Source of the DNA: Ilumatobacter sp.
Lineage (GTDB): Bacteria; Actinomycetota; Acidimicrobiia; Acidimicrobiales; Ilumatobacteraceae
Length of the DNA: 11,136 nucleotides
Direction of reading: 5' to 3'
Assembly (NCBI GenBank): GCA_029263275.1
Contig: JAJCXU010000259.1
Location: 1-11,136, forward strand
Shown here piece by piece: positions 478-11,136 of this stretch. Below the pieces are notes generated by a model that was not told the origin of the DNA, searched no databases, and saw only the letters and a list, made by a program, of their open reading frames with translations. The translations under genes were made by a program, and so were the position numbers. Each line of letters opens with the position of its first letter. Positions within the stretch are counted from its first letter, which is position 1.

Positions 478-1098
478 ATGATCTCCGCATTCGGCACCGA
501 CACGGCGCTCCTCCTGATCGACGTCCAACTCGGGGTGGACGACCTCGAACACTGGGGTGGGCCGACCGGGCGCCGCAACAACCCTGGTGCTGAGTCGGTG
601 ATGCTCGACCTACTCACGGCGTGGCGTGCAGCGGGTCGGCAGGTCGCGTTCACCCGTCACGACTCGCGTGAGGCGGCGTCGCCCTTGAAGTTCTCGTTGC
701 CGACTGGCGCGCAGAAGCCCGGGTTCGATCCTGCTGACCATGACATCGTCGTCTCGAAGGACGTCAACAGCGGGTTCGTCGGGACGTCACTCGACGTCGA
801 TCTGCGGCGACAGGGCATCAGCCGGTTGGTGATTGCTGGGTTCTTCACCAACTTCTGTGTCGAGACGACGACCCGCATGGCCGGCAACCTCGGCTTCGAC
901 ACCTATCTCGTTCACGACGGATGCGCGACGACCAACCGAGTCGGCCCCGACGGTGTCGATCACGACGCCGAGTTGGTTCATCAGATGAGCGTGGCCAACC
1001 TGCACGGCGAGTTCTGCACGGCGATCACCGGCGCCGACGCCGCGGGCCTGCGCCTCGCTGTCAACGCCCAACTCGATCGGATGCAAGGCAATGAGTGA
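478..1098 (+). CDS. Isochorismatase-family cysteine hydrolase
   Basis: A 206-residue enzyme of the isochorismatase-like fold, which includes amidases acting on N-carbamoyl and ureido compounds as well as true isochorismatases. The catalytic triad is visible: D15 in LLLIDVQ, K94 in [10 protein letters not shown] and the nucleophile C127 in [15 protein letters not shown], followed by the typical [10 protein letters not shown] strand (starting near residue 141). ATG 478 is chosen over ATG 454, because the fold normally starts a few residues before the ALLLIDVQ strand and because a promoter box lies 7 nt upstream of 478. It is the first gene of a plus-strand operon; the next gene is a guanidino-group hydrolase that begins within or just after its 3' end. 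A role in splitting a ureido product of that neighbour is an inference. The substrate cannot be read from the sequence. Confidence 0.88.
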
Positions 1099-1129
1099 AT
1101 TCACACCCGGACCGGGTGCAAACGTGAAT
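1099..1129 (+). repeat. 31-nt palindromic element, type 3, single copy
   Basis: Arms ATTCAC (1099-1104) and GTGAAT (1124-1129) are perfect inverted repeats around a 19-nt core containing CCGGACCGGGTGC. It begins at the base after the hydrolase stop codon (1096-1098). The reverse complement matches the copy at 10160-10190 at 27 of 31 positions, with the first 23 identical. This argues that it is an inserted intergenic element and not the original N-terminus of the next gene. Confidence 0.7.
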
Positions 1130-1144
1130 GGCGTGGATGTCGGT

Positions 1145-2005
1145 GTGAGTTCGACGTCGGCCATCCTGCGGCGAGTCGCGATGCGTCGGCCTGGAGCGCT
1201 GCTCACTGCCGATCACGAGCGCTGGCACTACGCCAAGCCGATCGACGCCGACCCTCTGCAAGGCCAGTACGACCGGTTCGCCGAGTTGGTCGAAGCGAGC
1301 GGCGCGGAGATCGTCTGGTTTCCGGAGACGGACGACGATCTCGCCGACTCGGTCTTCACCTACGACCCGTCGTTCGTCGTGCCGGGTGGCGCCGTCGTCC
1401 TTCGTGCCGGCAAGCCGCTGCGCGCTGGTGAGGCCGATCTCCACGCTGCGTTCTACGAGGCTGAGGGGATCCCGATTCTCGGACGGATCGAGGCACCGGG
1501 CACCTTCGAAGGCGGCGACAGTTTCTGGCTCGACGACACGACCCTTGCTGTCGGACGCGGCTTTCGGACCAACCAGGCAGGCATCGATCAGATGGCGGCC
1601 ATTGTCGAACCGCTCGGCATCGCGCTCGAGGTCTATGACCTGCCGTACCACCTCGGTCCCGAGGCATGCCTGCACCTGATGTCGGTCGTCAGTGCGCTTG
1701 ATGCCGACCTCGCCCTCGTTCACCTGCCGTTGATGCCGACGGCGCTGTACCAGCGGATGATCGAAATGGGCTACACCCTGCTCGAAGCACCCGCTGAGGA
1801 GTTCGACGCGAGCCTCGGGCTGAACCTCAACGTGCTGGCCACTGGACCACGCAAAGTGATCGCGGTCGAAGGGTTCCCGGCAACGCTGCAGTTGATGCGT
1901 TCCGCGGGATGTGAGGTGTCGACGTTCCTCGCCGACGAACTGTGCATCCCCTGCGAAGGTGGCCCCACGTGCCTGACGCGACCGCTGCTCCGGGGGAGTG
2001 GTTGA
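1145..2005 (+). CDS. Dimethylargininase-like hydrolase (DDAH / arginine deiminase superfamily)
   Basis: Guanidine-modifying hydrolase; family members turn N-methylated arginines, or related guanidino compounds, into citrulline or another ureido product plus an amine. Visible family features, numbered from GTG 1145: MRRPG near residues 13-17, FTYDPSFV in the substrate pocket, EGGD (122-125), GRGFRTNQAG, the catalytic histidine H177 in CLHLMSV and the nucleophile C276 in GGPTCLTRPL near the C-terminus. That makes 286 residues, a usual family length. An upstream ATG at 1091 is in frame and would add 18 residues and overlap the previous gene by 8 nt, but those residues are mostly encoded by the 31-nt repeat and are not family-like. 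GTG 1145 has a weak GGA 7 nt upstream. The start is therefore uncertain while the family is solid. Whether the true substrate is dimethylarginine is not shown. Confidence 0.9.
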   Translation: MSSTSAILRRVAMRRPGALLTADHERWHYAKPIDADPLQGQYDRFAELVEASGAEIVWFPETDDDLADSVFTYDPSFVVPGGAVVLRAGKPLRAGEADLHAAFYEAEGIPILGRIEAPGTFEGGDSFWLDDTTLAVGRGFRTNQAGIDQMAAIVEPLGIALEVYDLPYHLGPEACLHLMSVVSALDADLALVHLPLMPTALYQRMIEMGYTLLEAPAEEFDASLGLNLNVLATGPRKVIAVEGFPATLQLMRSAGCEVSTFLADELCIPCEGGPTCLTRPLLRGSG

Positions 2006-2018
2006 TGAGCGCGCGGAA

Positions 2019-2591
2019 ATGAAGCCTCGTCTCGTGCTCGTGACGGGCGAACCGGGCAGCGGCAAGAGCACGTTGGCCCGCGAGCTCGCGGTCTGCCTTC
2101 GATTGCCGTTCATCGCACGCGACGACATCCGCGGTGGACTCTTCTTCACTGCTGGCGCCTGGGGCGAGCAGTTGGACAGAATCCCGCCTGCAGACGAAGC
2201 GGTCGAGGGCTTCCTGTCGACCGTTGAGCTGCTCCTCGAACGCGGCGTGAGCTGTGTGGTCGAGTACGTCGTTCGAAGTAACCGACCTCAGGATCTCGAT
2301 CGACTCACCGCTCGAGGTGACTGTGTCGTCATTGTCGCGACGTGCGCAGATCCGATGGAGCGGGTGCGCCAACGGAACTCCACGGACCGATTGATTGCGA
2401 ATGAGGCAGTGCGGGACGCTGCTGGCTTTGCGTCTGTGGAGGAGCACACCGCTGCGTTGGTTACTCGCATGTCGCACGTTCGTGACGAGATGCGCCACGT
2501 CTTTCCGATGCCGACGCTGGAAGTCGACACGACCTCGGACTACCTGCCCGATCTCGACAGCATCATCGCGTTCGTCACCGCGCCGACCTGA
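2019..2591 (+). CDS. P-loop kinase-like ATPase (AAA_33 / zeta-like group)
   Basis: A 190-residue single-domain NTP-binding protein, last in the plus-strand operon. The Walker A loop GEPGSGKS is at residues 10-17, directly after the first beta strand (RLVLVTG). IARDDIRGG (about 32-40) fits the DD-containing substrate region of small kinases, and an arginine-rich stretch, ERVRQRNSTDR, looks like a LID. This layout fits kinases that phosphorylate small molecules or RNA, but no substrate is recognisable. ATG 2019 is chosen because the Walker strand then begins after three residues, as is usual. An in-frame GTG at 1998 would overlap the previous gene by 8 nt. Partners in the operon are a cysteine hydrolase and a guanidino hydrolase, so action on a small metabolite is a reasonable guess. 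Confidence 0.8.
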   Translation: MKPRLVLVTGEPGSGKSTLARELAVCLRLPFIARDDIRGGLFFTAGAWGEQLDRIPPADEAVEGFLSTVELLLERGVSCVVEYVVRSNRPQDLDRLTARGDCVVIVATCADPMERVRQRNSTDRLIANEAVRDAAGFASVEEHTAALVTRMSHVRDEMRHVFPMPTLEVDTTSDYLPDLDSIIAFVTAPT

Positions 2592-2653
2592 TGTCGCTGG
2601 ACGCGGACGCGTGTGTTCCGAGCCGGCCCATGCGGACAGGAGCCGCGACGTTG

Positions 2654-3595
2654 TCAGCGGAGGGCTGCGACGCGGCGCGCGAGAGCAGCCATGATCGACG
2701 GCTCGTCGTTCACGCACGCGGTGCGATCGAACGCGAGGCCGACCTGCTCGGCGCGCTGTGATGCTTCGATGTCGAGGTCGAACAGCACTTCGAGATGATC
2801 GGCCACGAAGCCGACCGCGCTGACGATGACGCCGCCGTGCTGGCCTCCTGATCCGAGTTCGTCGATCACTTCGAGGATGTCGGGACCGATCCACGGCTCT
2901 GGCGTCCGTCCGGCCGACTGCCAGGCGATGGTCCAGTCGTCGCCTTCCACGAGGCCGAGCTTGGCGGCAACCGCTTCGGCGGTCGTCCGCAGCTCGTCCG
3001 CATACGGATCGCCGCCGTCGATGATGCGCTGCGGAAGTGAGTGTGCAGTGAACAGCACTCGGACCGGTTGCTCGGTCGTGGCGCGCATCGTGGCGAGTCG
3101 TTCGCGGAGGTCGGAAGCGATGAAGTCGACGTACGCCGGCTCGACTGCCCAGCTCTCGACACCCGCCACGGGCGTTGCGGTACCTGCGTCGTCGACGCCC
3201 TGGCGGGTGCGGTCGAGGTACTGGCCGATCGAATACGCCGAGTAGTGCGGAGCGAGCACCAGGCCGATGAGCTTCGAGAAGCCCGCCGTGGCGAGCTCGG
3301 CACTGGTCACCTCGACCTTCGGGTCGGCATGCTTCAACCCGAGCGTCACGTGGAATGTGTCGGGCTCGATCTCGTCGAGGGCGGCTTGCAGCCCGTCGCG
3401 TTGGTCCTCGGTCAGCTTGGCGAGCGGCGAGATGCCACCGATGGCGTCGTACCGCGCAACCAAGTCGGCCAGCGCCTCGGGCGTGGGCGGTCGACCGCGG
3501 CGGATGTCGGTGTAGTACGGCTCGATTTCCTCAGTGGAGCGAGGCGTGCCATATGCCATCAGCACCACGCCGACGCGGCCTGCGTTGTCAGTCAT
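2654..3595 (-). CDS. hemH: Ferrochelatase (coproporphyrin III or protoporphyrin IX)
   Basis: Inserts ferrous iron into the porphyrin ring; in actinobacteria this is usually coproporphyrin III (CpfC). The 313-residue protein has VLMAYGTPRS (11-20), YYTDIRRGRPP, RYDAIGGISPL (48-58), LAPHYSAYSIGQYL (114-127), the catalytic H185 in FTAHSLP and E269 in GFVADHLEVLFDLD. It contains a single cysteine (C294), so the [2Fe-2S] cluster of mycobacterial homologues cannot be present. ATG 3595 is preferred. An in-frame ATG at 3607 adds four residues, and longer readings from about 3685 are made of repeat sequence. It follows hemE on the same strand, separated by 96 nt that are largely two palindromic elements. 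Its stop faces the stop of the plus-strand kinase gene across 62 bp in which I see no clear terminator. Confidence 0.96.
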   Translation of the reverse strand: MTDNAGRVGVVLMAYGTPRSTEEIEPYYTDIRRGRPPTPEALADLVARYDAIGGISPLAKLTEDQRDGLQAALDEIEPDTFHVTLGLKHADPKVEVTSAELATAGFSKLIGLVLAPHYSAYSIGQYLDRTRQGVDDAGTATPVAGVESWAVEPAYVDFIASDLRERLATMRATTEQPVRVLFTAHSLPQRIIDGGDPYADELRTTAEAVAAKLGLVEGDDWTIAWQSAGRTPEPWIGPDILEVIDELGSGGQHGGVIVSAVGFVADHLEVLFDLDIEASQRAEQVGLAFDRTACVNDEPSIMAALARRVAALR

Positions 3596-3617
3596 CGCCA
3601 CCAGCATGCCCGCCAGA

Positions 3618-3648
3618 GTTACGAATGGGGTCAGGCCCCTTTCGTAAC
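3618..3648 (-). repeat. 31-nt palindromic element, type 1, copy A
   Basis: Arms GTTACGAA (3618-3625) and TTCGTAAC (3641-3648) are perfect inverted repeats around the asymmetric core GGGGTCAGGCCCC. Read in reverse complement it matches copy B at 30 of 31 positions. The flanks CAGA before and TATTT after are the same, in direct orientation, as those of copy B. It lies in the hemE-hemH intercistronic region. Confidence 0.85.
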
Positions 3649-3661
3649 TATTTCGAGCAGA

Positions 3662-3692
3662 GTTACGAAAGGGGCCTGACCCCATACGTAAC
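3662..3692 (-). repeat. 31-nt palindromic element, type 1, copy B (inverted core)
   Basis: Arms GTTACGAA and TACGTAAC enclose GGGGCCTGACCCC, the reverse complement of the core in copy A, 44 nt along. Copies A and B can pair with each other over 31 bp with one mismatch and a 13-nt loop (3649-3661). The element ends in the last base of the hemE stop codon (3694-3692). Confidence 0.85.
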
Positions 3693-4732
3693 TATTTGGC
3701 GGTGCGCTCGTGGACGAGATCGACGACGGCGTGAAGAACGCCTGGGTCGCTGTGCTGGTGCACGCCGTGGCCGAGGTTGAAGATGTGGCCCGGGTGACCG
3801 CCGTTGTCGGCCAGCACGGCCTCGGCGCCAGCGATGGCCGGCGCGGTGCCAGCCAGCACGAGTGAGGGGTCGAGGTTGCCTTGTACGACGAGGTCGTCAC
3901 CGAGCCGACGGCGGGCGTCGGTGATCGTCGTGCGCCAATCGAGTCCGAGGACGCGGTTGCCGACGGTGTTCATCGACTCGAGTAGATGGTCACAACCGAT
4001 GCCGAAGTGGATGCCGGGTGCACCGGGATGCCGTTCGGCCAACTCGTTGAAGACCCGCTGCGAGTGCGGGAGGACGAAGTGGTCGTAGTCGGCCTTGCTC
4101 AGCGTGCCCGCCCACGAATCGAACAACTGGAAGGCACGGGCGCCGTGCTGCAGCTGCGCATCGATGAACGTGACGGCACTCGTGGCGAGCCGTTCCATCA
4201 CATCGCCGAACAGCACCGGATCGGTGTGCATCATCGCCTTGGTGTATCGATAGTCCTTCGACGGGCGTCCCTCGATCAGGTAGCTGCCGACGGTGAATGG
4301 CGCGCCCGCGAACGCGAGGAGCGGCACATCAGCCGGGAGCTCGGCGACGAGGAGGTCGACGGTGTCGATGACGTAGCTGATGTCATCCCAGTCGAGCGGT
4401 CGCAGGCGATCGAGATCAGCTCGGCTGCGGAATGGTGTCTCGGCGACCGGACCGGTTCCGGGTTGCACGTCCATGCCGAAGCCGACCGCGTGTGGGGGGA
4501 CCACGATGTCGCTGTAGAGCACAGCGGCGTCGACGCCGTATCGGCGGACCGGCTGCAGGGTGATCTCCGCTGAAACCTCAGGCTGCTTGATCGCATGGAG
4601 GATGGAGCCCTCGCCACGGACCTCGTGATACTCGGGCAGCGAACGCCCCGCCTGGCGCATGAACCAGACCGGCGTGTGTCGAGCCGGTTCGCCGCTCGCC
4701 GCAGCAATGAAGGGAGCGGTTTCGGTAGTCAT
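3692..4732 (-). CDS. hemE: Uroporphyrinogen decarboxylase
   Basis: Cytosolic enzyme that removes the four acetate carboxyls of uroporphyrinogen III to give coproporphyrinogen III, the substrate of HemY/CgoX. The 346-residue protein has the full family length and motifs: PVWFMRQAGRSLPEY (21-35) with the substrate-binding R26 and R30, YSDI with D75, FAGAPFTVGSY (141-151), FDSWAG (204-209), QGNLDP (284-289) and FNLGHGVH (318-325). It is the first gene of a minus-strand unit with hemH. The start at ATG 4732 gives the expected short N-terminus. A TAGCGT box ends 9 nt upstream and no Shine-Dalgarno sequence is visible. The final Lys-stop codons (AAATAG) coincide with the flank of the palindromic element, and the same AAATAG occurs at the matching place beside copy A. 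Confidence 0.97.
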   Translation of the reverse strand: MTTETAPFIAAASGEPARHTPVWFMRQAGRSLPEYHEVRGEGSILHAIKQPEVSAEITLQPVRRYGVDAAVLYSDIVVPPHAVGFGMDVQPGTGPVAETPFRSRADLDRLRPLDWDDISYVIDTVDLLVAELPADVPLLAFAGAPFTVGSYLIEGRPSKDYRYTKAMMHTDPVLFGDVMERLATSAVTFIDAQLQHGARAFQLFDSWAGTLSKADYDHFVLPHSQRVFNELAERHPGAPGIHFGIGCDHLLESMNTVGNRVLGLDWRTTITDARRRLGDDLVVQGNLDPSLVLAGTAPAIAGAEAVLADNGGHPGHIFNLGHGVHQHSDPGVLHAVVDLVHERTAK

Positions 4733-4741
4733 CGTCGCTCG

Positions 4742-4747
4742 ACGCTA
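4742..4747 (-). promoter_or_regulatory. Putative -10 box of hemE (leaderless-type)
   Basis: On the minus strand TAGCGT (TAnnnT) ends 9 nt before ATG 4732, which puts a transcription start within two or three bases of the start codon. There is no clear -35 hexamer. Confidence 0.35.
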
Positions 4748-4795
4748 TCGACGCGGCGCCGCATCGGGCCCGCCCGGCCTGACGTGACCGACCGA

Positions 4796-4852
4796 GTCGA
4801 CGTCGCGCTGGATGCCACTGTTGACGTCGCGGTTGGCGCCACGGTTGATGTC
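4796..4852 (+). repeat. Degenerate 24-bp tandem repeat between hemE and helD
   Basis: Two units of 24 bp (4796-4819 and 4820-4843) share GT(C/T)GACGTCGCG followed by a gat/ggcGCCAC end. A third, partial unit begins at 4844 with GTTGATGTCAC. The 24-bp period also keeps an open frame (DVAxxATV repeats), but no gene is supported there. It lies in the 174-bp divergent region and could be operator repeats or a coding remnant. Confidence 0.5.
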
Positions 4853-4865
4853 ACGTCACCCGCAA

Positions 4866-4893
4866 TTGATCCTGGGCCAGACGTCGGTAGCAT
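4866..4893 (+). promoter_or_regulatory. Putative promoter of helD
   Basis: TTGATC (4866-4871), a 16-nt spacer and TAGCAT (4888-4893) lie 13 nt before ATG 4907. The mRNA would have a leader of only about six bases. No Shine-Dalgarno sequence is present, so translation would be leaderless or nearly so. Confidence 0.4.
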
Positions 4894-4906
4894 TTGACGA
4901 CTCATT

Positions 4907-7060
4907 ATGACGCAGCAGCACCCTGACATCGCTGACGAGCAGGCGTACATCGAGCACGCGTACGACTGTCTCGAAACCAGCCGTAAAGCGGCGTTCCGCG
5001 TTCGAGGCCTCAACGAGGCCAGCATGGGCGGCACCTTCCAGGCCCGCTTTGAGCGCAACGCATTCGACAGCCAACTCGTTCGCCGCCTCGAAGAGTTGGA
5101 GCTCGGTGACGCCTCGCTCGTGTTCGGCCGAATCGACCGCTACGCGGAGTCGCCCGATCAACTCGAGGCATTCCACATCGGGCGTCTTGCCGTTGCCGAC
5201 GAAGATCGTGAACCGGTCGTCGTGGATTGGCGTGCACCCGTCGCCGAACCGTTCTACCGGGCCACCGGACGCGACTCGATGGGCCTGGCCCGGCGACGGC
5301 ATTTCATCATCGAAGGCCGGAAGCTGCTCGGCATCGAGGACGAACTCTTCGGTGAAGGTCATCTCGGGCTCGGCCACGACGAGGGACTCGACGGCACCAC
5401 CGGTGAGTCGGGTGTCGTCACTGCCGACTCGGGCTTACGCGGGTACTCCACGCTGCTCGCCGCACTCGAGCGCGGCCGCACGGGAACGCTCGGCGACATC
5501 GTTGCCACGATCCAAGGCGAGCAGGACGAGATCATCCGCTCGCCGCAGCATGGCGTGCTGGTCGTCCAGGGTGGTCCCGGGACTGGCAAGACCGTGGTCG
5601 CGCTGCACCGTGCCGCCTATCTGCTCTACACGCATCGGTTCCCGCTCGAGGACCAAGGCGTGCTCGTCATCGGTCCGAACCGCGTGTTCCTCCGTTACAT
5701 CGAGCGCGTGCTGCCTTCACTCGGCGAGGCGGGGGTCCAGCAAGTGGTGCTGGCCGATCTGATTCCCGGCGTGCAGTTCCGTCGGCCCGACGAACCGGGC
5801 GATGCCCACGAGGCAGTCAAGATCAAGGGCGAGGAGCGGATGTCTGATCTCATCGACAACGCGATCGCTGACCGCAAGCGGCCGCTGCGCGAAGACTTCG
5901 AGATGCCGTTCCGCGCGGGCTACGTACGGCTCCGAGCTGAAGAGTCAGCTCGCATCGTCAAGAACGCCAAGCGCCGGTTCAAGCGCCACAACTCCGGCCG
6001 ACGAGCCGTTGAGGGTGAGTTCTGGTCCGCACTTGCCGATTCGTATCACGACGTCGAGATCGGCCCCCGCGACGTCAAGGAAACACTGCGGCACACGCCT
6101 GAAGCACGAGCCGCGCTCGACACGATGTGGCCCCTCCTCACACCAGCGCAGCTACTTCACGACCTGTTCGGGTCGCGGGCCCTGCTCAAACTCGCGGCAC
6201 GCGGCGTGATGTCCGAGTCCGAAGCGCTTGCCCTGTATCGCAAGCGATCCGAGACTGTCGATGATGTGCGCTGGACGTTGTCTGACGTGGCACTGCTCGA
6301 CGACGTTCGCGATGTGCTCGGCCCGAAGCCGGGCAAGGGCGGCAAGATCGACGAACTCGACGAGATTCGCACCTACGGGCACATCGTCATCGACGAGGTC
6401 CAAGACCTCACGCCGATGCAGCTGAAGATGGCGATGCGCCGTTCGCTGAACGGTGCGATGACCATCGTGGGAGACCTCGCTCAGGCGACTGGCCCACTTG
6501 CTCCGAACGAGTGGGAAGACGTGCTCGCGCACCTGCCCGATCGCAAGCCGGCCCGTGTCATCGGGCTCTCGGTCGGCTACCGCATCCCCGGCCAGATCAT
6601 GGAGATGGCGAACAAGGTGATGGCAGTGGCCACGCCGTCGCTCCGAGCACCTGAATCCGTGCGCGTCGGTGACGTGTCGCCGACCATCGTGCGTGCGCCG
6701 TCGACCGCGCTGCTCGGAAAGACCGTCGCCGAGGAAGTGCTTGCGCTCGCTGAGGCCATCCCCGGTGCGAGCCTTGGCATCGTTGCTCCCGACCAGATCA
6801 TCGACGATCTTTCTGTGGCGCTCACCGAGGCGGGCATCAATCACGGCACCGCGACTCGCACGGGGCTCGACTCGGGCGTCACCCTGGTGCCGGTCAGTGT
6901 CGTGAAGGGCCTCGAGCTCGACGGCGTCGTCGTCGTCGAACCCTCAGCAATCGTCGACAGCATCGAGCACGGCATGCGCGCCCTCTACGTCGCGCTGACT
7001 CGCAGTACGCAACGCCTCACGGTCGTCCACGCCGACGAACTCCCCGAACCCCTCCGCTAG
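4907..7060 (+). CDS. helD: HelD-family superfamily 1 helicase (RNA polymerase recycling factor)
   Basis: HelD proteins bind RNA polymerase, push into its channels and release stalled complexes from nucleic acid, using ATP. Actinobacterial members (for example HelR) can also protect against rifamycins. This 717-residue protein is close to the usual actinobacterial length. It has an N-terminal helical arm (about 1-60), the conserved VVVDWRAPVAEPFYR segment (about 105-119), Walker A GGPGTGKT with K228, a long insertion between the helicase halves, Walker B VIDEVQDLTPMQ (D496, E497), motif III TIVGDLAQATGP, motif V VSVVKGLELDGVVVVEP and motif VI ALYVALTRSTQRLTV near the end. The start at ATG 4907 gives the expected arm. 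It stands alone, divergent from hemE and convergent with a lipoprotein gene, with a pair of palindromic elements beginning 10 nt after its stop. A rifamycin-related role cannot be judged from sequence alone. Confidence 0.93.
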   Translation: MTQQHPDIADEQAYIEHAYDCLETSRKAAFRVRGLNEASMGGTFQARFERNAFDSQLVRRLEELELGDASLVFGRIDRYAESPDQLEAFHIGRLAVADEDREPVVVDWRAPVAEPFYRATGRDSMGLARRRHFIIEGRKLLGIEDELFGEGHLGLGHDEGLDGTTGESGVVTADSGLRGYSTLLAALERGRTGTLGDIVATIQGEQDEIIRSPQHGVLVVQGGPGTGKTVVALHRAAYLLYTHRFPLEDQGVLVIGPNRVFLRYIERVLPSLGEAGVQQVVLADLIPGVQFRRPDEPGDAHEAVKIKGEERMSDLIDNAIADRKRPLREDFEMPFRAGYVRLRAEESARIVKNAKRRFKRHNSGRRAVEGEFWSALADSYHDVEIGPRDVKETLRHTPEARAALDTMWPLLTPAQLLHDLFGSRALLKLAARGVMSESEALALYRKRSETVDDVRWTLSDVALLDDVRDVLGPKPGKGGKIDELDEIRTYGHIVIDEVQDLTPMQLKMAMRRSLNGAMTIVGDLAQATGPLAPNEWEDVLAHLPDRKPARVIGLSVGYRIPGQIMEMANKVMAVATPSLRAPESVRVGDVSPTIVRAPSTALLGKTVAEEVLALAEAIPGASLGIVAPDQIIDDLSVALTEAGINHGTATRTGLDSGVTLVPVSVVKGLELDGVVVVEPSAIVDSIEHGMRALYVALTRSTQRLTVVHADELPEPLR

Positions 7061-7070
7061 ATCACCACTC

Positions 7071-7101
7071 AGTCACAGCGGGGCCGGGTACAGCTGTGAC
7101 T
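7071..7101 (+). repeat. 31-nt palindromic element, type 2, copy A
   Basis: AGTCACAGC (7071-7079) and GCTGTGACT (7093-7101) form a perfect 9-bp stem around the loop GGGGCCGGGTACA. It starts 10 nt after the helD stop codon, so it could help to end helD transcription, although no T-run follows. Confidence 0.85.
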
Positions 7102-7102
7102 C

Positions 7103-7133
7103 AGTCACAGCGGGGCCGGGTACGACTGTGACT
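7103..7133 (+). repeat. 31-nt palindromic element, type 2, copy B
   Basis: A direct copy of the preceding element, one base away and differing only in two core bases (GA for AG). Arms AGTCACAG and CTGTGACT are intact. The two copies make a 17-nt palindrome across their junction (7094-7110). The element's last base is also the last base of the lipoprotein gene's stop codon (7135-7133). Confidence 0.85.
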
Positions 7134-7621
7134 CAGCCGTCGCCGGTGAACTGATCGACGAGGTCGGTGAGCAGACTGAAGGCCTTGTCCGCGTCGGCTG
7201 GTCGAGTGCGCTCGACGGACGTGCGAGCCATGTCGATCGTGGCCCCGAGCCCATTGAGGAGTTCGGGTCGGTCGCGCTCGATCTCGGGTCGAATGCGCTC
7301 CCAGATCTGTTCGATGCGGGCGAGGGTTGCGTCGTCGCCATCGCCCTCTGCCACTTGTGATCCGAGACGACTCATCTCGATCGACATCTCGGGGAGCAGG
7401 TCGGCCGCCGAGCCGGTGAGGGCAATGGTCGAGGTCGGCGCGTCAGCGTCGACGATGACGCCCCCTTCGATCAGTTCCCCGCTCTCGAGCGCGGGTTCGG
7501 CTCCCTCGGGAACGTCGGTGACATCGGCGGTGGCGGACGTGTCGGTCTCAGCGTCGTCGACGGTGGTGGAGCAGGCACCGAGGAGCAGAATGCACCCGGC
7601 AACCATCAGTTGGCGTGGCAT
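7133..7621 (-). CDS. Small lipoprotein of unknown function
   Basis: A 162-residue protein with a lipoprotein signal: two basic-region residues, a hydrophobic core (LMVAGCILL) and the lipobox LLGAC with C17 as the lipidated cysteine. A Thr/Asp/Glu-rich, low-complexity stretch (about 18-50) follows, then a mostly helical part rich in charged residues (about 75-160), with RIEQIWERIRPEIERDRP as the most helix-like segment. I recognise no domain. ATG 7621 overlaps the regulator's stop codon as TGATG, which implies translational coupling; a GTG at 7624 is possible but adds only one residue. Being coupled to a DtxR-type regulator suggests a metal-related or envelope role, but no metal-binding motif (His or Cys clusters) is visible in the mature part. 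Confidence 0.8.
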   Translation of the reverse strand: MPRQLMVAGCILLLGACSTTVDDAETDTSATADVTDVPEGAEPALESGELIEGGVIVDADAPTSTIALTGSAADLLPEMSIEMSRLGSQVAEGDGDDATLARIEQIWERIRPEIERDRPELLNGLGATIDMARTSVERTRPADADKAFSLLTDLVDQFTGDG

Positions 7622-8283
7622 CACGCCGTGACCAGAATCCGCTCACTCGCGAACGAGCCGACGCCGATGTGCTGGCCCTTGATCTCGACGGTCAGTGTGC
7701 CGTCCGGTGACAACGCGGTGACCGTGCCGACATTGCCCGGCTGGATGGAAGATGCTTCGAGGAATTCGAGGAGACCGGGCTCGAATTCGAGTTCCTCGGT
7801 GATTCGCCGAACGGTGAAGGGTTCTCCCACAGCGACATCTGACAAGGGGCCGGAATCGGGCCGGGCTTCGTAGCCCGAACCCGGGATGGGGTTGCCGTGC
7901 GGGCAGGTGGTCGGGTCGCCGAGCAACTCGACCATCGCCTGCTCGACTGAATCGCTGATGACGTGTTCCCAGCGTCCAGCTTCGTGGTGTGCCTCGGCCC
8001 ACGACAGCTTCAGAACATCGGTGAGGAACCGTTCGGCCAGCCGATGGCGCCGCACGACCTGCACGGCGAGTCGTTCGCCAACCGGGGTGAGAACGATTGC
8101 CTTGTCGGCGGTGATGAGACCTTCGGCCTCGAGCCGCTTCATCATCTCCGACACTGCTGGTCGACTGACCTGCAGACGCTCAGCGATGCGGGCTTGGATG
8201 ACGTCGACATCGTCCTCCTGCAGTTCGAAGATGCACTCGCAGTACTCCTCAAACGCTGGATGGTGCTCGCCCGGGTTTGGCAT
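7621..8283 (-). CDS. DtxR/IdeR/MntR-family metal-dependent transcriptional regulator
   Basis: DNA-binding repressor that uses Fe(II) or Mn(II) as co-repressor. The 220-residue protein has the three-part layout of long members: winged helix (about 9-75; IQARIAERLQVSRPAVSEMM as recognition region), dimerisation and metal-binding domain (about 76-140; RRHRLAERFLTD and HHEAGRWEHVISD), a CPHGNPIP loop, and an SH3/FeoA-like C-terminal domain (about 150-220). Ancillary-site residues H80, E84 and H99 are kept, as are E106 and H107 of the primary site. However, the position of DtxR Cys102 is G103, and that of DtxR Met10 is E13, so metal preference cannot be assigned. ATG 8283 follows a TAGATT box by 6 nt and has no Shine-Dalgarno sequence, which suggests a leaderless mRNA. 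It is coupled to the lipoprotein gene downstream. Confidence 0.93.
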   Translation of the reverse strand: MPNPGEHHPAFEEYCECIFELQEDDVDVIQARIAERLQVSRPAVSEMMKRLEAEGLITADKAIVLTPVGERLAVQVVRRHRLAERFLTDVLKLSWAEAHHEAGRWEHVISDSVEQAMVELLGDPTTCPHGNPIPGSGYEARPDSGPLSDVAVGEPFTVRRITEELEFEPGLLEFLEASSIQPGNVGTVTALSPDGTLTVEIKGQHIGVGSFASERILVTA

Positions 8284-8289
8284 CTGGCC

Positions 8290-8295
8290 AATCTA
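8290..8295 (-). promoter_or_regulatory. Putative -10 box of the DtxR-family gene (leaderless-type)
   Basis: On the minus strand TAGATT fits TAnnnT and ends 6 nt before ATG 8283, the spacing expected when transcription starts at the A of the start codon. No good -35 hexamer or obvious metal box is visible. The GC-rich structure at 8315-8366 lies just upstream. Confidence 0.4.
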
Positions 8296-8314
8296 GCGGC
8301 CCTCGATCCACCGG

Positions 8315-8366
8315 CCGCCCCGCCCTCCCTCCGGTTGTCGCACGCACCCGTGCGGGGGCGGGGCGG
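8315..8366 (-). terminator. Nested GC-rich stem-loop after the SF2 helicase gene
   Basis: CCGCCCCGCCC (8315-8325) pairs perfectly with GGGCGGGGCGG (8356-8366). Inside the loop CGCACG (8339-8344) pairs with CGTGCG (8349-8354). The structure starts a few bases after the helicase stop codon (8373-8371), which suggests a transcription stop or mRNA-stabilising hairpin. No T-run follows, so a classical intrinsic terminator is not shown. Confidence 0.4.
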
Positions 8367-8370
8367 GGTG

Positions 8371-10083
8371 TTAGGAACGTTGGAGGCGGCGGAGCCAGCT
8401 CTCGGCGTAGCGCAGGCGGCGGCCGAGTTGTTCGTTCGTTGCACTCGCCACGCGGGCGACGCCAGCGATGCGGTTCATCTCGCCCTGCACCTTGGCGTGA
8501 TTCCATCCGGTCATGTCGACGAGCCGCTTCGCCACGTGTGCATTGCGGGTTCGCAGATCATCCTTGATCTCCGCGACGCTCATCGATCCATGCGGGATCA
8601 GCCCTGCCGCGGTGGGGATCTCCGGGAGGTCGAGCCCGAGTGATGGGTCATCCGAGAAGAACGGATCAGGTGGATCGGGCTCGTCGTCGTAGGCGACCAT
8701 TCCCAGGTCTTCCGGAGAGAAGTTGGGTTCGAATTCGATGCCGTCGAGGTGCTTGCCGTCTTCGCCGACGGTGTGCATGGTGATGTCGGTGACTGTCGAC
8801 GCCACGACCGAGAAGAGTGACATCTGCTCCATGTCGTCGTCGTGGACCTGGCTTTCGAGGCCGCCGTCAGGCTGGAAGTCGTCGTCATCGCCTTTGCCGG
8901 GTGGACGCAGCACGTGGCGCCGCGCCTCGGCGATGGTGAACGCATGCGCACGAAGGCGTGGATCGTCCGGGATGTAGACGTAGGCCTTCTGACTCGTCCG
9001 GCCTGCCTGCCAACGCACGAAGCGGCCGACCGCCTGGCGGAAGAACAGCTCGGTGGAGGTGGTTGTGGCGAACACGCCAACTCGCAGGCGAGGGATGTCG
9101 ACGCCCTCGGACACCATCCGCACCGACACCAGCCACGGCCGATCGTTGTCGCTGAACTCCGCGATCTTCTTCGATGAGCCCGGGTCGTCGCTGACCACCA
9201 CGTCGGCGGGAACGCCGAATCGGTCACGGAGCAGAATCGCGATGTGCTGAGCGTGCTCTTGGTCGGTGGCGATGACGAGGCCGCCGGCGTCGCGCTGCTC
9301 GGAGCGGATGTTGCGGAGCTGGTCGTTGGCCTTCTTGAGCACCGCTGGCATCCACTCGCCTTCGAGGCTCAGAGCTGTGCGCAGGCGCATCGAGGACTGA
9401 TCTTTGGTCAGCTCGTCCTGAAAGTTCGCCGACACGGTGTCTCCCGACGCCGAGGTCCATTCCATCTCGCCGTCGACACGCGGGAAGTAGACCGGCCGCA
9501 CGACACCGCCGTCGCGCAACGCGTCGGCGTAGCCGTAGGTGTAGTCGGCGTGGGCCAACTCGCCTTCCGCGGTGTTGTCGTACCGAACGAACGGGATCTG
9601 AGCGGCGTCGCTGCGGAACGGCGTGCCGGACAGTGAGAGGCGCTTGTGGGCGTGCCCGAACGACTTGCGGACGCCGTCGCCCCAGGCCTTTTCGTGGCCG
9701 GCGTGGTGGATCTCGTCGAGGATGACGAATGCTTCAGCAGAGAGCCCAGCGAGCTTCTTCGCCGCGCTGCCCATCGCGAGCTGCTGATACGTGGTGACGA
9801 GGCCGTGCACGTCGCGGGCCAGACCATCGCCCGGGGACCAGTCGGGATCGAGTTGCAGGCCCATGCGGTGAGCCGCACGCGACCACTGGATCTTGAGGTG
9901 GCTGGTCGGGGCGACAACGATCAGCGGACGGTTCTCGTCGGCGAGCGATGCCCGGGCACAGGTGAGCGCAAAAGTCGTCTTGCCGGCGCCAGGTGTGGCG
10001 ACCGCCAGGTAGTCCGGACCGGTGTTGGCGCGAAAAAGATCGAACGCAGCGCGCTGCCACGGGCGGAGGGTGACGGTCGACAT
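8371..10083 (-). CDS. DEAD/DEAH-box superfamily 2 helicase, substrate unknown
   Basis: A 570-residue ATP-dependent helicase. The N-terminal LRPWQRAAFDLF acts like a Q-type motif. It is followed by Walker A ATPGAGKTT with K35, motif Ia VVAPTSHLKIQW (56-67), motif II DEIHH (123-127), motif III SGTP (152-155), motif IV region GGLVIATDQEHA (267-278), motif V VSVRMVSEGVDIP (319-331) and motif VI QAVGRFVR (350-357). After the two RecA domains comes an acidic, Asp/Pro-rich linker (about 398-490), then a basic helical C-terminal domain (about 500-570) that may bind nucleic acid. Layout is closest to the single-chain DNA repair or restriction-like SF2 enzymes, but I cannot name a subfamily. ATG 10083 is chosen because the LRPWQ motif begins six residues in; an in-frame GTG at 10122 would add 13 residues with no family features. 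The DtxR-type gene follows after 87 bp. Confidence 0.9.
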   Translation of the reverse strand: MSTVTLRPWQRAAFDLFRANTGPDYLAVATPGAGKTTFALTCARASLADENRPLIVVAPTSHLKIQWSRAAHRMGLQLDPDWSPGDGLARDVHGLVTTYQQLAMGSAAKKLAGLSAEAFVILDEIHHAGHEKAWGDGVRKSFGHAHKRLSLSGTPFRSDAAQIPFVRYDNTAEGELAHADYTYGYADALRDGGVVRPVYFPRVDGEMEWTSASGDTVSANFQDELTKDQSSMRLRTALSLEGEWMPAVLKKANDQLRNIRSEQRDAGGLVIATDQEHAQHIAILLRDRFGVPADVVVSDDPGSSKKIAEFSDNDRPWLVSVRMVSEGVDIPRLRVGVFATTTSTELFFRQAVGRFVRWQAGRTSQKAYVYIPDDPRLRAHAFTIAEARRHVLRPPGKGDDDDFQPDGGLESQVHDDDMEQMSLFSVVASTVTDITMHTVGEDGKHLDGIEFEPNFSPEDLGMVAYDDEPDPPDPFFSDDPSLGLDLPEIPTAAGLIPHGSMSVAEIKDDLRTRNAHVAKRLVDMTGWNHAKVQGEMNRIAGVARVASATNEQLGRRLRYAESWLRRLQRS

Positions 10084-10136
10084 GGGAGGGGTCCGAGTCT
10101 GGCGACCCAGGTGATGGGGCACAACTCCCGACCGGT

Positions 10137-10146
10137 CACAATTGTG
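10137..10146. promoter_or_regulatory. 10-bp perfect palindrome upstream of the SF2 helicase
   Basis: CACAATTGTG is a perfect palindrome 54 bp before ATG 10083. CACAAT within it could also be a weak -10 box for the helicase on the minus strand. An operator function is only a suggestion. Confidence 0.2.
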
Positions 10147-10159
10147 CGCGCCCTCCCAG

Positions 10160-10190
10160 ATTCACGTTTGCACCCGGTCCGGACGTGAGC
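10160..10190 (+). repeat. 31-nt palindromic element, type 3, copy A of pair
   Basis: TCACGT (10162-10167) and ACGTGA (10183-10188) are inverted arms around TTGCACCCGGTCCGG. It matches the reverse complement of the element at 1099-1129 at 27 of 31 positions. It lies in the 217-bp divergent region between the SF2 helicase and ABC-F genes. Confidence 0.85.
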
Positions 10191-10194
10191 GGTC

Positions 10195-10226
10195 GCTCAC
10201 ATTTTGCACCCGGTCCGGACGTGAGT
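10195..10226 (+). repeat. 32-nt palindromic element, type 3, copy B of pair
   Basis: A direct copy of the element four bases before it; arms CTCAC (10196-10200) and GTGAG (10221-10225), with one extra T in the T-run of the core. The facing arms of the two copies form a 16-nt hairpin with stem GTGAGC/GCTCAC and loop GGTC (10185-10200). Confidence 0.85.
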
Positions 10227-10233
10227 GGGGTGG

Positions 10234-10239
10234 TACCGT
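10234..10239 (+). promoter_or_regulatory. Putative -10 box of the ABC-F transcript
   Basis: TACCGT (TAnnnT) ends 8 nt before the ATG of a five-codon ORF at 10248, the same spacing seen before hemY, hemE and the hydrolase gene. Any -35 region would fall inside the palindromic element at 10195-10226; no good hexamer is visible. Confidence 0.35.
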
Positions 10240-10247
10240 TCACGGCG

Positions 10248-10265
10248 ATGAAGAACCAGAGCTGA
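10248..10265 (+). CDS. Possible leader peptide MKNQS upstream of the ABC-F gene
   Basis: ATG AAG AAC CAG AGC TGA encodes five residues and ends 35 nt before the ABC-F start. Its ATG lies where transcription should begin from the TACCGT box, so it could be read as a leaderless upstream ORF. Short leader ORFs control several antibiotic-resistance ABC-F genes by ribosome stalling. For this one, only position and spacing support it; an ORF this short can arise by chance. Confidence 0.3.
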   Translation: MKNQS

Positions 10266-10288
10266 ACCCACCGTCCGTTCGCTCTCCT

Positions 10289-10294
10289 GAAAGG
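10289..10294 (+). promoter_or_regulatory. Shine-Dalgarno sequence of the ABC-F gene
   Basis: GAAAGG lies 6 nt before ATG 10301. This gene has a proper ribosome binding site, unlike most first genes in the window, so its start should lie within a leader and not at the 5' end of the mRNA. Confidence 0.6.
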
Positions 10295-10300
10295 CGCCCC

Positions 10301-11136
10301 ATGGCTGCTTCGCTCATCGCCCGTTCTGTTTCTGTTTCTCGCGGTCCACTCACCGTGCTCGATGCCGTCGACCTCACGCTGGGCCCCGGTCGCCGCGTGG
10401 GCTTGGTCGGTCCCAATGGCGTCGGCAAATCGACGTTGCTCGCCACGCTTGCCGGCTCGATTGCCCCGGACAGCGGGTCGGTTGCGATCACTCCGCCGTC
10501 GGCAAACGTCGGCCTCCTACCGCAGGAACCCGCCCGTTCGGAGAATGAGACGGTCAGACAATTCCTCGCGCGACGGACGGGTGTCGCGGCAGCACAACAA
10601 GAACTCGACGCCACGACGCAGGGTCTCGCTGATGGTTCGGCTGGTGCTGACGATCGGTATGCCGACGCCCTCGACCGGTGGCTCGCACTCGGTGCTGCTG
10701 ACTTCGATGCGCGCATCGGCGAAGTGTGGGCATCGCTCGGGCTCGGCGACCGCCTCATCGATCAACCGACGGCCACGCTGTCGGGTGGTGAAGCCGCCCG
10801 CTCGTCGCTCGCCTCGCTGTTGCTGTCGCGGTTTGACGTCGTACTCCTCGACGAACCAACGAATGATCTCGACCACGATGGTTTGGCGCGCCTGGAAGAG
10901 TGGGTACTCGGCCTCGACGCACCGGTGCTGGTGGTGAGTCACGACCGAACGTTCCTCGAACGGACCGTGACCGACGTGGTCGAAATCGATCACCACAGCC
11001 ATCGTGCGACCTGGTTCTCCGGCGGCTGGGCAGCATTCCTCGCCGAACGTGAGCTCGCCAAGCAGCACGCCCGCGAGGCCTTCGAGGAGTTCGACGGCAA
11101 GCGTCAGAACCTGCTCGACCGAGCCCAGCGCGAACG
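10301..11136 (+). CDS. ABC-F family ATPase, N-terminal part; runs off the right edge
   Basis: ABC-F proteins have two ABC ATPase domains joined by a linker, lack membrane segments and act on the ribosome, either as translation factors or as protection against antibiotics. The visible 278 residues contain one complete domain: Walker A GPNGVGKST with K43, Q-loop LLPQEP, signature LSGGEAARSSL (from 160), Walker B VVLLDEPTNDLD with D184 and E185, and the switch H214 in VVSHDRTFLE. The charged, helical start of the interdomain linker follows (about 245-278; FLAERELAKQHAREAFEEF). There are no membrane segments. GAAAGG is spaced well before ATG 10301. The second ATPase domain and most of the linker are outside the window, so resistance type versus housekeeping type cannot be decided. 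Confidence 0.93.
   Translation, partial: MAASLIARSVSVSRGPLTVLDAVDLTLGPGRRVGLVGPNGVGKSTLLATLAGSIAPDSGSVAITPPSANVGLLPQEPARSENETVRQFLARRTGVAAAQQELDATTQGLADGSAGADDRYADALDRWLALGAADFDARIGEVWASLGLGDRLIDQPTATLSGGEAARSSLASLLLSRFDVVLLDEPTNDLDHDGLARLEEWVLGLDAPVLVVSHDRTFLERTVTDVVEIDHHSHRATWFSGGWAAFLAERELAKQHAREAFEEFDGKRQNLLDRAQRE

Follow-up and report, generated by a model that had tools for sequence, protein, structure and literature searches.

REP-like hairpins of three types, probably mobile, and Y1 transposase genes in an Ilumatobacter draft genome

Seven hairpin units at four gene junctions

We analysed a stretch of 11,136 nucleotides (hereafter the window) that constitutes one contig, JAJCXU010000259.1, of the Ilumatobacter sp. 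assembly GCA_029263275.1. It carries seven short hairpins, each with inverted arms around a core, which belong to three types and lie at four gene junctions. A reading made from the sequence alone had described them as REP-like (repetitive extragenic palindromic) elements of a modular superfamily with a fixed length of 31 nt, and we found all seven at the coordinates it gave. A single type 3 unit on the forward strand (1099–1129, core CGGACCGGGT at 1108–1117) abuts the stop codon of an isochorismatase-family gene (454–1098). At the hemE–hemH junction a type 1 unit on the forward strand (3618–3648, core GGGGTCAGGC at 3627–3636) is followed, after a 13-nt spacer, by an inverted type 1 unit on the reverse strand (3662–3692), which furnishes part of the TAG stop codon of hemE; the pair (3618–3692) is predicted to fold as a single extended hairpin (−38.7 kcal/mol, z −13.9). 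Two type 2 units on the forward strand (7071–7101, core GGGGCCGGGT at 7080–7089, and 7103–7133) form a direct repeat with a period of 32 nt, and two type 3 units on the reverse strand (10160–10190 and 10195–10226) form another, the second of them having one inserted base.

Compared without gaps, types 2 and 3 agree at 22 of 31 positions, types 1 and 2 at 12/31 and types 1 and 3 at 11/31, the same values as first read. Folded as single-stranded DNA (ssDNA), the type 1 and type 2 units do better than shuffled sequences (z −2.9 to −5.8), an effect that is less marked for the type 3 units (z −2.2, −1.5 and −0.4, the last being that of 10195–10226 and the weakest of the seven). Dependable pairing in type 3 covers only 27 nt (TCACGT...ACGTGA) and the bases flanking these vary, which corrects the type 3 arms described earlier. 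At the base pair beside these arms we saw no compensatory change by eye, the two sides varying independently. A search of the window with Rfam at gathering scores gave no match, and a plasmid search with the window DNA returned just two matches, both distant.

The source draft (G000; 3.54 Mb in 672 contigs, 70% complete) holds many more copies. With up to three mismatches allowed, the whole draft contained 38 copies of type 1, 43 of type 2 and 29 of type 3, and the same patterns reversed, as a control, matched nowhere for any type; a search tolerant of insertions and deletions yielded 38, 43 and 30 copies at 86 loci. Among the 73 loci that could be classified with a rough gene caller, 69 are intergenic and four lie within genes, the other 13 of the 86 being at contig edges. 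In the broad sense of a palindrome of 20–40 nt that is multi-copy and mainly intergenic, all three types are REP-like, as had been proposed, and none is peculiar to the window. Separately, 13 of the 38 type 1 copies in the draft have AATA at their left end, which together with the first G of the element spells TAG; the hemE stop codon at 3690–3692 is such a case.

Transposase genes between hairpin copies

Three PF01797 (Y1) genes, L001, L002 and L003, are present in the draft, and all exceed the cut-off of that profile. Against NF047646 they score 44–58 bits, under its 80-bit cut-off, and the TnpA-REP structure 4er8, itself that of a relative, gave a profile match (E 3.8e-4). L001 has type 1 copies on both sides, the contig end truncating one of them, and L003 is bracketed by inverted type 2 copies, a single one in one flank and two in the opposite flank. 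Genes resembling REP-associated tyrosine transposases (RAYTs), which the sequence-only reading had suggested looking for, thus occur in the same genome and are flanked by the hairpins of types 1 and 2. An insertion sequence of the IS200/IS605 kind, with several near-identical copies of its transposase gene, was ruled out: there are three genes, and L001 and L002 are only 42% and 41% identical to L003.

Scanning 221 genomes of the bacterial family, we found PF01797 genes in 20 and took 30 RAYT loci from them. A strict scan of the flanks showed similar hairpin pairs at 17 of these 30 loci, and by manual count 14 of the 17 have a YCAGR centre with differing arms. Further RAYT loci came from a protein-based scan of named genomes that was blind to the flanks, from which we used the best 80 of 542, spread over many phyla. 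Inverted repeats between upstream and downstream flanks scored above the 99% level of mismatched pairs (37) at 21 of 29 family loci and at 52 of the 80 others. In a tree made by a quick method without bootstrap, L001 (type 1), L003 (type 2) and six others form one clade of eight family rows, with a support of 99 in the Shimodaira–Hasegawa-like approximate likelihood ratio test (SH-aLRT). In this tree, as in the flank, core-stem and inverted-repeat analyses, L102 was entered in a wrong frame (hence its long branch) and L108 was left out.

Ten genomes of the genus could be compared for type 1, which has 38 copies in G000, 48 in G115, 35 in G117, 11 in G112 and none in the other six. A type 1 RAYT was read in exactly the three high-copy genomes (L001 in G000, L102 in G115 and L098 in G117). 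Most type 1 copies of G000 have the arm variant TTACG, and most of those among the matches listed for G115 and G117 have TTGCG, as do the RAYT-flanking copies of these two genomes. A merged pattern for types 2 and 3, run on the 221 family genomes, matched 75 times in G000 alone and once more, with three mismatches, in G133, a match that we take for chance.

None of the three types occurs in the sister genome G114 (82% complete), which is collinear with the window from 478 to 11136 at 74–78% identity. Opposite the type 3 unit at 1099–1129 the alignment has a single 32-nt gap, equal to the 31-mer and the G that follows it; the neighbouring bases are in place, and no target duplication was seen at this site. 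The type 2 pair (7071–7133) is missing from G114 ahead of CTCAGCC, which itself is kept in G114 and G119; the size difference there is about 64–66 nt, or two 32-nt periods, as read by eye where the aligner had scattered the gap. G114 is not alignable at the junction that holds the type 3 pair (10160–10226). Its hemE–hemH junction (L316, about 3229–3284) contains another hairpin, CGTCACATCT-GGTGCCAGGCACC-AGATGTGACACG, with arms CGTCACATCT and core GGTGCCAGGCACC. This single site has been colonised by different hairpin types, the type 1 pair in G000 and the other in G114.

In our reading the units are mobile hairpins of a REP-like, non-autonomous kind that depend on Y1 (HUH-tyrosine) transposases of TIRYT or TnpAY1 subclass 2.1 type, and we put the probability of this at about 85%. 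Each type would be terminal to a transposase gene, with hairpin copies in opposite orientation on the two sides of that gene. By analogy with E. coli TnpA-REP and with IS200/IS605, the enzyme would recognise the hairpin as ssDNA, cut at its foot and paste copies mostly just past gene ends. Types 1 and 2 would be the hairpins of the RAYTs L001 and L003, two enzymes with an ancestor in common within the bacterial family. Type 3 would be the sister of type 2, mobilised by the enzyme of the latter or by another that the draft lacks. An old transposase-linked motif, GGGGTCAG, would form the core, and the complementary arms would be lineage-specific and often changing.

Core, arms and the relation between the types

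With type 1 read in the orientation of its transposase, the core occupies positions 10–19 (GGGGTCAGGC in type 1, GGGGCCGGGT in type 2 and CGGACCGGGT in type 3). The cores of types 1 and 2 agree at 7 of 10 positions, the remaining three all being transitions (equalled by shuffled cores in 2.8%), and those of types 2 and 3 at 8 of 10 (equalled in 0.5%). The offset of the core is the same in all three types, as the sequence-only reading had held, and its direction relative to the gene is the same for types 1 and 2. Across phyla a gene-proximal motif, GGGGTCAG or GGGGTCAA and in Bacillota GGGGACGG, lies mostly 45–70 nt upstream of the start position. A GGG[TA]C[AG][AG] core was present in the upstream 220 nt at 40 of 48 loci from other phyla (7 of the 55 being excluded for too short a flank) and at 14 of 20 Bacillota loci; control windows further upstream gave 3–7 of 42–47 and 0–2 of 16–20, and the opposite strand 7/48 and 2/20, respectively. 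Types 1 and 2 also often have a C.GA foot, at 16 left and 25 right ends of the 38 type 1 copies and at 14 left and 20 right ends of the 43 type 2 copies, over a background of 2.2%, or 12.7% given the A.

Arms and core were found to vary separately, in keeping with the earlier claim. The same arms enclose different cores in type 1 and L096, where TACGAA-type arms go with different inner stems, and in L107 and L115, whose common arms CGTCAAAGTT surround an inner stem of GTGTCAGACAC in one and GTGCCAGGCAC in the other, both sides having changed together. Conversely, the same core lies within different arms in type 1 and in L091 and L092, where a type 1-like GGGGTCAG-CCCC core sits inside other arms. 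Core-flanking stems exceed those of mismatched arms in the Acidimicrobiia set (mean 5.27 vs 3.44; 15 of 32 loci anchored) and in Bacillota (5.57 vs 3.89; 14 of 20 anchored), with no excess in other phyla (3.57 vs 3.43; 47 of 55 anchored), the groups being assigned by record titles and kinship. Palindromic arms therefore seem to have been added to an old core in particular lineages; as a universal feature they were rejected. The fixed length of 31 nt did not hold up: 24 hand-collected hairpin units of the same family range from 23 to 37 nt, with a median of 31. For the most part the modular superfamily stands: types 1–3 belong to one broader kind, in which arms and core vary separately. Neither outcome named beforehand as fatal to it occurred, every type being multi-copy and the core offset being shared. 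Type 3 is tied in solely through its likeness to type 2 and its adjacency to it.

A further proposal, which we hold tentatively and ourselves think doubtful, is that two domains of one enzyme read two codes. The HUH domain would read the arms and foot as an ssDNA hairpin and a DnaA-domain-IV-like tail would read the core as double-stranded DNA; beside a TTGAC-like −35 upstream of the gene, the core might also be an operator for the enzyme's self-repression. If this were true, having a reader each would account for the independent change of arms and core, and new arm types (1, 2 and 3) could appear with the core still recognisable in phyla from Actinomycetota to Bacillota and Pseudomonadota. 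Two further patterns are post hoc, come from hand-picked or filtered sets and serve as leads only. A TTGAC-like sequence follows the core, about 6–28 nt from its start (L118–L195), at 23 of 35 loci, compared with 14 of 136 background windows, with exact TTGAC at 13 of the 35, which gives the impression of a repeat overlapping the promoter of the transposase; and the arm motif [GT]T[CT]AC occurs in 13 of the 24 collected units, against a shuffled mean of 1.16.

Types 2 and 3 lie within 6 nt of each other at eight loci, where 0.2–0.6 would be expected for an assumed 1,500–3,500 junctions (P 1.6e-8 or less); type 1 stands beside types 2 or 3 near chance level only. The eight loci show four relative arrangements and varied gaps, and the neighbours therefore look like independent insertions side by side. 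Hybrid bacterial interspersed mosaic elements (BIMEs) from two RAYTs are described in the part of PMC2817692 considered here, for Stenotrophomonas. Such co-location suggests that types 2 and 3 are handled in common. Type 3 may be a diverged type 2 that the type 2 enzyme propagates, one RAYT then serving two REP classes; we see this as a special case of mobile hairpins moved by Y1 transposases, not as an exclusive alternative, and give it somewhat less than even odds. It would account for the 22/31 identity, the near-identical core, the eight shared loci and the failure to find a RAYT of type 3's own in the draft, and has a precedent in Pseudomonas, where, in the sections of PMC3686654 considered, several REP classes of one orthogroup go with one RAYT. 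Against it stand the 30% incompleteness of the draft and the absence of the C.GA foot from both ends of type 3 (0/29).

That three unrelated repeat families converged on about 31 nt, the size that RAYT hairpins generally have, seems unlikely to us. The RAYTs of types 1 and 2 fall in the one eight-row clade, the two types have C.GA feet in common, and the core has one offset in all three types and one gene-relative direction in types 1 and 2. Convergence would fit the likeness of the type 1 and type 3 cores, which taken alone is at chance level, and the orientation of dimers, which is inverted in type 1 (2/2) and direct in type 2 (4/4) and type 3 (9/9).

Mobility, host use and known repeat families

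The hairpins could instead be host regulatory elements, terminators or mRNA stabilisers selected at gene ends, with only an incidental link to the transposases. Their loci lie between tandem genes in 39 cases, convergent genes in 27 and divergent genes in 3, against 100, 32 and 15 for all junctions in the same stretches (rough gene caller), which would suit such a role; yet no terminator-like site overlaps any unit, G114 does without all three types and has a different hairpin at its hemE–hemH junction, and among the genomes of the genus a high type 1 copy number tracks the type 1 RAYT. We consider this explanation very improbable, and the hairpins may still have a secondary use for the host. 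DDE-type miniature inverted-repeat transposable elements or CRISPR-like arrays, which small palindromes partly in tandem pairs might bring to mind, are hardly credible beside Y1 genes located between the repeats, at most three copies per locus without regular spacers, and a clean empty site that shows no target duplication.

Several observations weigh against mobile hairpins of Y1 transposases, for which all the support is comparative. L002, at a contig end, has no hairpin on its retained side; the reading frame adjoining it is presumably an IS3-type integrase. Searches of the 70%-complete draft with PF01797 and with the L003 protein gave only L001–L003, and no transposase for type 3 was found among them. 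Besides lacking a C.GA foot at both ends, type 3 has a core that agrees with that of type 1 at 5 of 10 positions, which shuffled cores equal in 35% and which is not significant alone. A matching type 1 RAYT is absent from the 99%-complete G112, whose 11 type-1-like copies have a different inner core (CGGGTCAGACCCG) and are possibly orphans of a lost enzyme. No above-control inverted repeat was present at 8 of 29 family loci and 28 of the 80 other RAYT loci, in some because the flank is cut, and just one empty site (1099–1129) aligns cleanly.

The closest published systems are TIRtrons and their TIRYT enzymes, presented in the sections of Di Nocera et al., 2013 (PMC3733652) considered here as Y1 genes enclosed by inverted repeats, in many cases containing GGGGWSAS. 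Some of those repeats are self-complementary and some moderately abundant, and they were termed TIRs, unrelated to GTAG REPs. L001 and L003 are like them in being Y1 transposase genes between inverted repeats and differ in that their repeats have an arm-core-arm hairpin design in which the arms change, with three types in one genome. Type 1 (GGGGTCAG) fits GGGGWSAS, and types 2 (GGGGCCGG) and 3 (CGGACCGG) deviate from it in letters at the same offset. The word ‘actinobacteria’ does not occur in the text of PMC3733652, and the lineage studied here is not named there.

In the parts of Quentin et al., 2018 (PMC6006769) that bear on this, 20 of 26 of Di Nocera's examples were assigned to subclass 2.1, which ranks second in size within this transposase family, and REP-like sequences were not found at subclass 2.1 or 2.3 genes. 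The present enzymes share the HUH core with its Y-NP motif, and the DnaA-related C-terminal helix-turn-helix reported there was seen here in relatives; in contrast to that report, hairpins flank the genes here and occur in tens of copies. REP-like hairpins thus exist for TIRYT/subclass 2.1 enzymes, where a main classification reports none. For a subclass reported without REP-like sequences in those parts of the paper, these hairpins are candidate substrates. Three types in one genome, and relatives differing mainly in arms or core, are natural variants that make the specificity of REP and RAYT testable. The sequence-only reading had not recognised the family, which is half right: the enzymes, like their inverted repeats, have in fact been published (PMC3733652, PMC6006769, as far as these were considered), but arm-core-arm REP families for such enzymes were not found in our searches of the open-licence literature. 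The portion of PMC12306157 considered gives REP counts for one Acidimicrobium, and ‘RAYT’ is absent from its text.

Classical GTAG REPs, REPINs and BIMEs with their RAYTs resemble the present units as intergenic palindromes with inverted copies at the RAYT, coevolution, hybrid BIMEs and complementary changes (Nunvar 2010, PMC2817692, and Nunvar 2013, PMC3686654, each in the sections considered; see also Bertels 2011, PMC3116915). The present units differ in the foot, where C.GA is frequent in types 1 and 2, and in their enzymes, which are longer and have an extra C-terminal domain. A canonical GTAG REP was ruled out, as GT[AG]G stood at the foot in 0/38, 0/43 and 0/29 copies of types 1, 2 and 3 at either end (four bases tested). 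CGTC REPs, which are likewise short multi-copy hairpins and are reported in that part of PMC3733652 without a dedicated transposase, were also ruled out, with CGTC at neither end in 110 copies (four bases tested per end). Because both foot tests failed, the units stand outside the GTAG and CGTC superfamilies, though they would work like them.

A hairpin scan of the family relative G111 covered 800 kb of its closed 4.83 Mb genome, half of it chosen around two RAYTs, and gave 191 hairpins against 66 in shuffled sequence, with TCAGA (30) as the top centre. Two of the families found, GTCTCAGAGAC (18) and GTGTCAGACAC (12), match two of its RAYT loci, L109 and L116. Two others, GCTCCCGGAGC (8) and CATCCCGGATG (6), at L276–L315, have GGTTA arms and a CCCGG centre and had no match among the three of its five RAYT loci that were compared. 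In G107, from another genus, the upstream flank of L103 has a hairpin, GGTGTCACAGCGGGTGTCTGACACC, that includes GTCACAGCGGG, which is 11 letters of the type 2 left arm and core start. The flanks of two further RAYT genes, L104 and L095, carry tandem arrays of units of about 36 nt that are not simple palindromes; these are inverted across the gene at L104 and lie on the same strand on both sides at L095.

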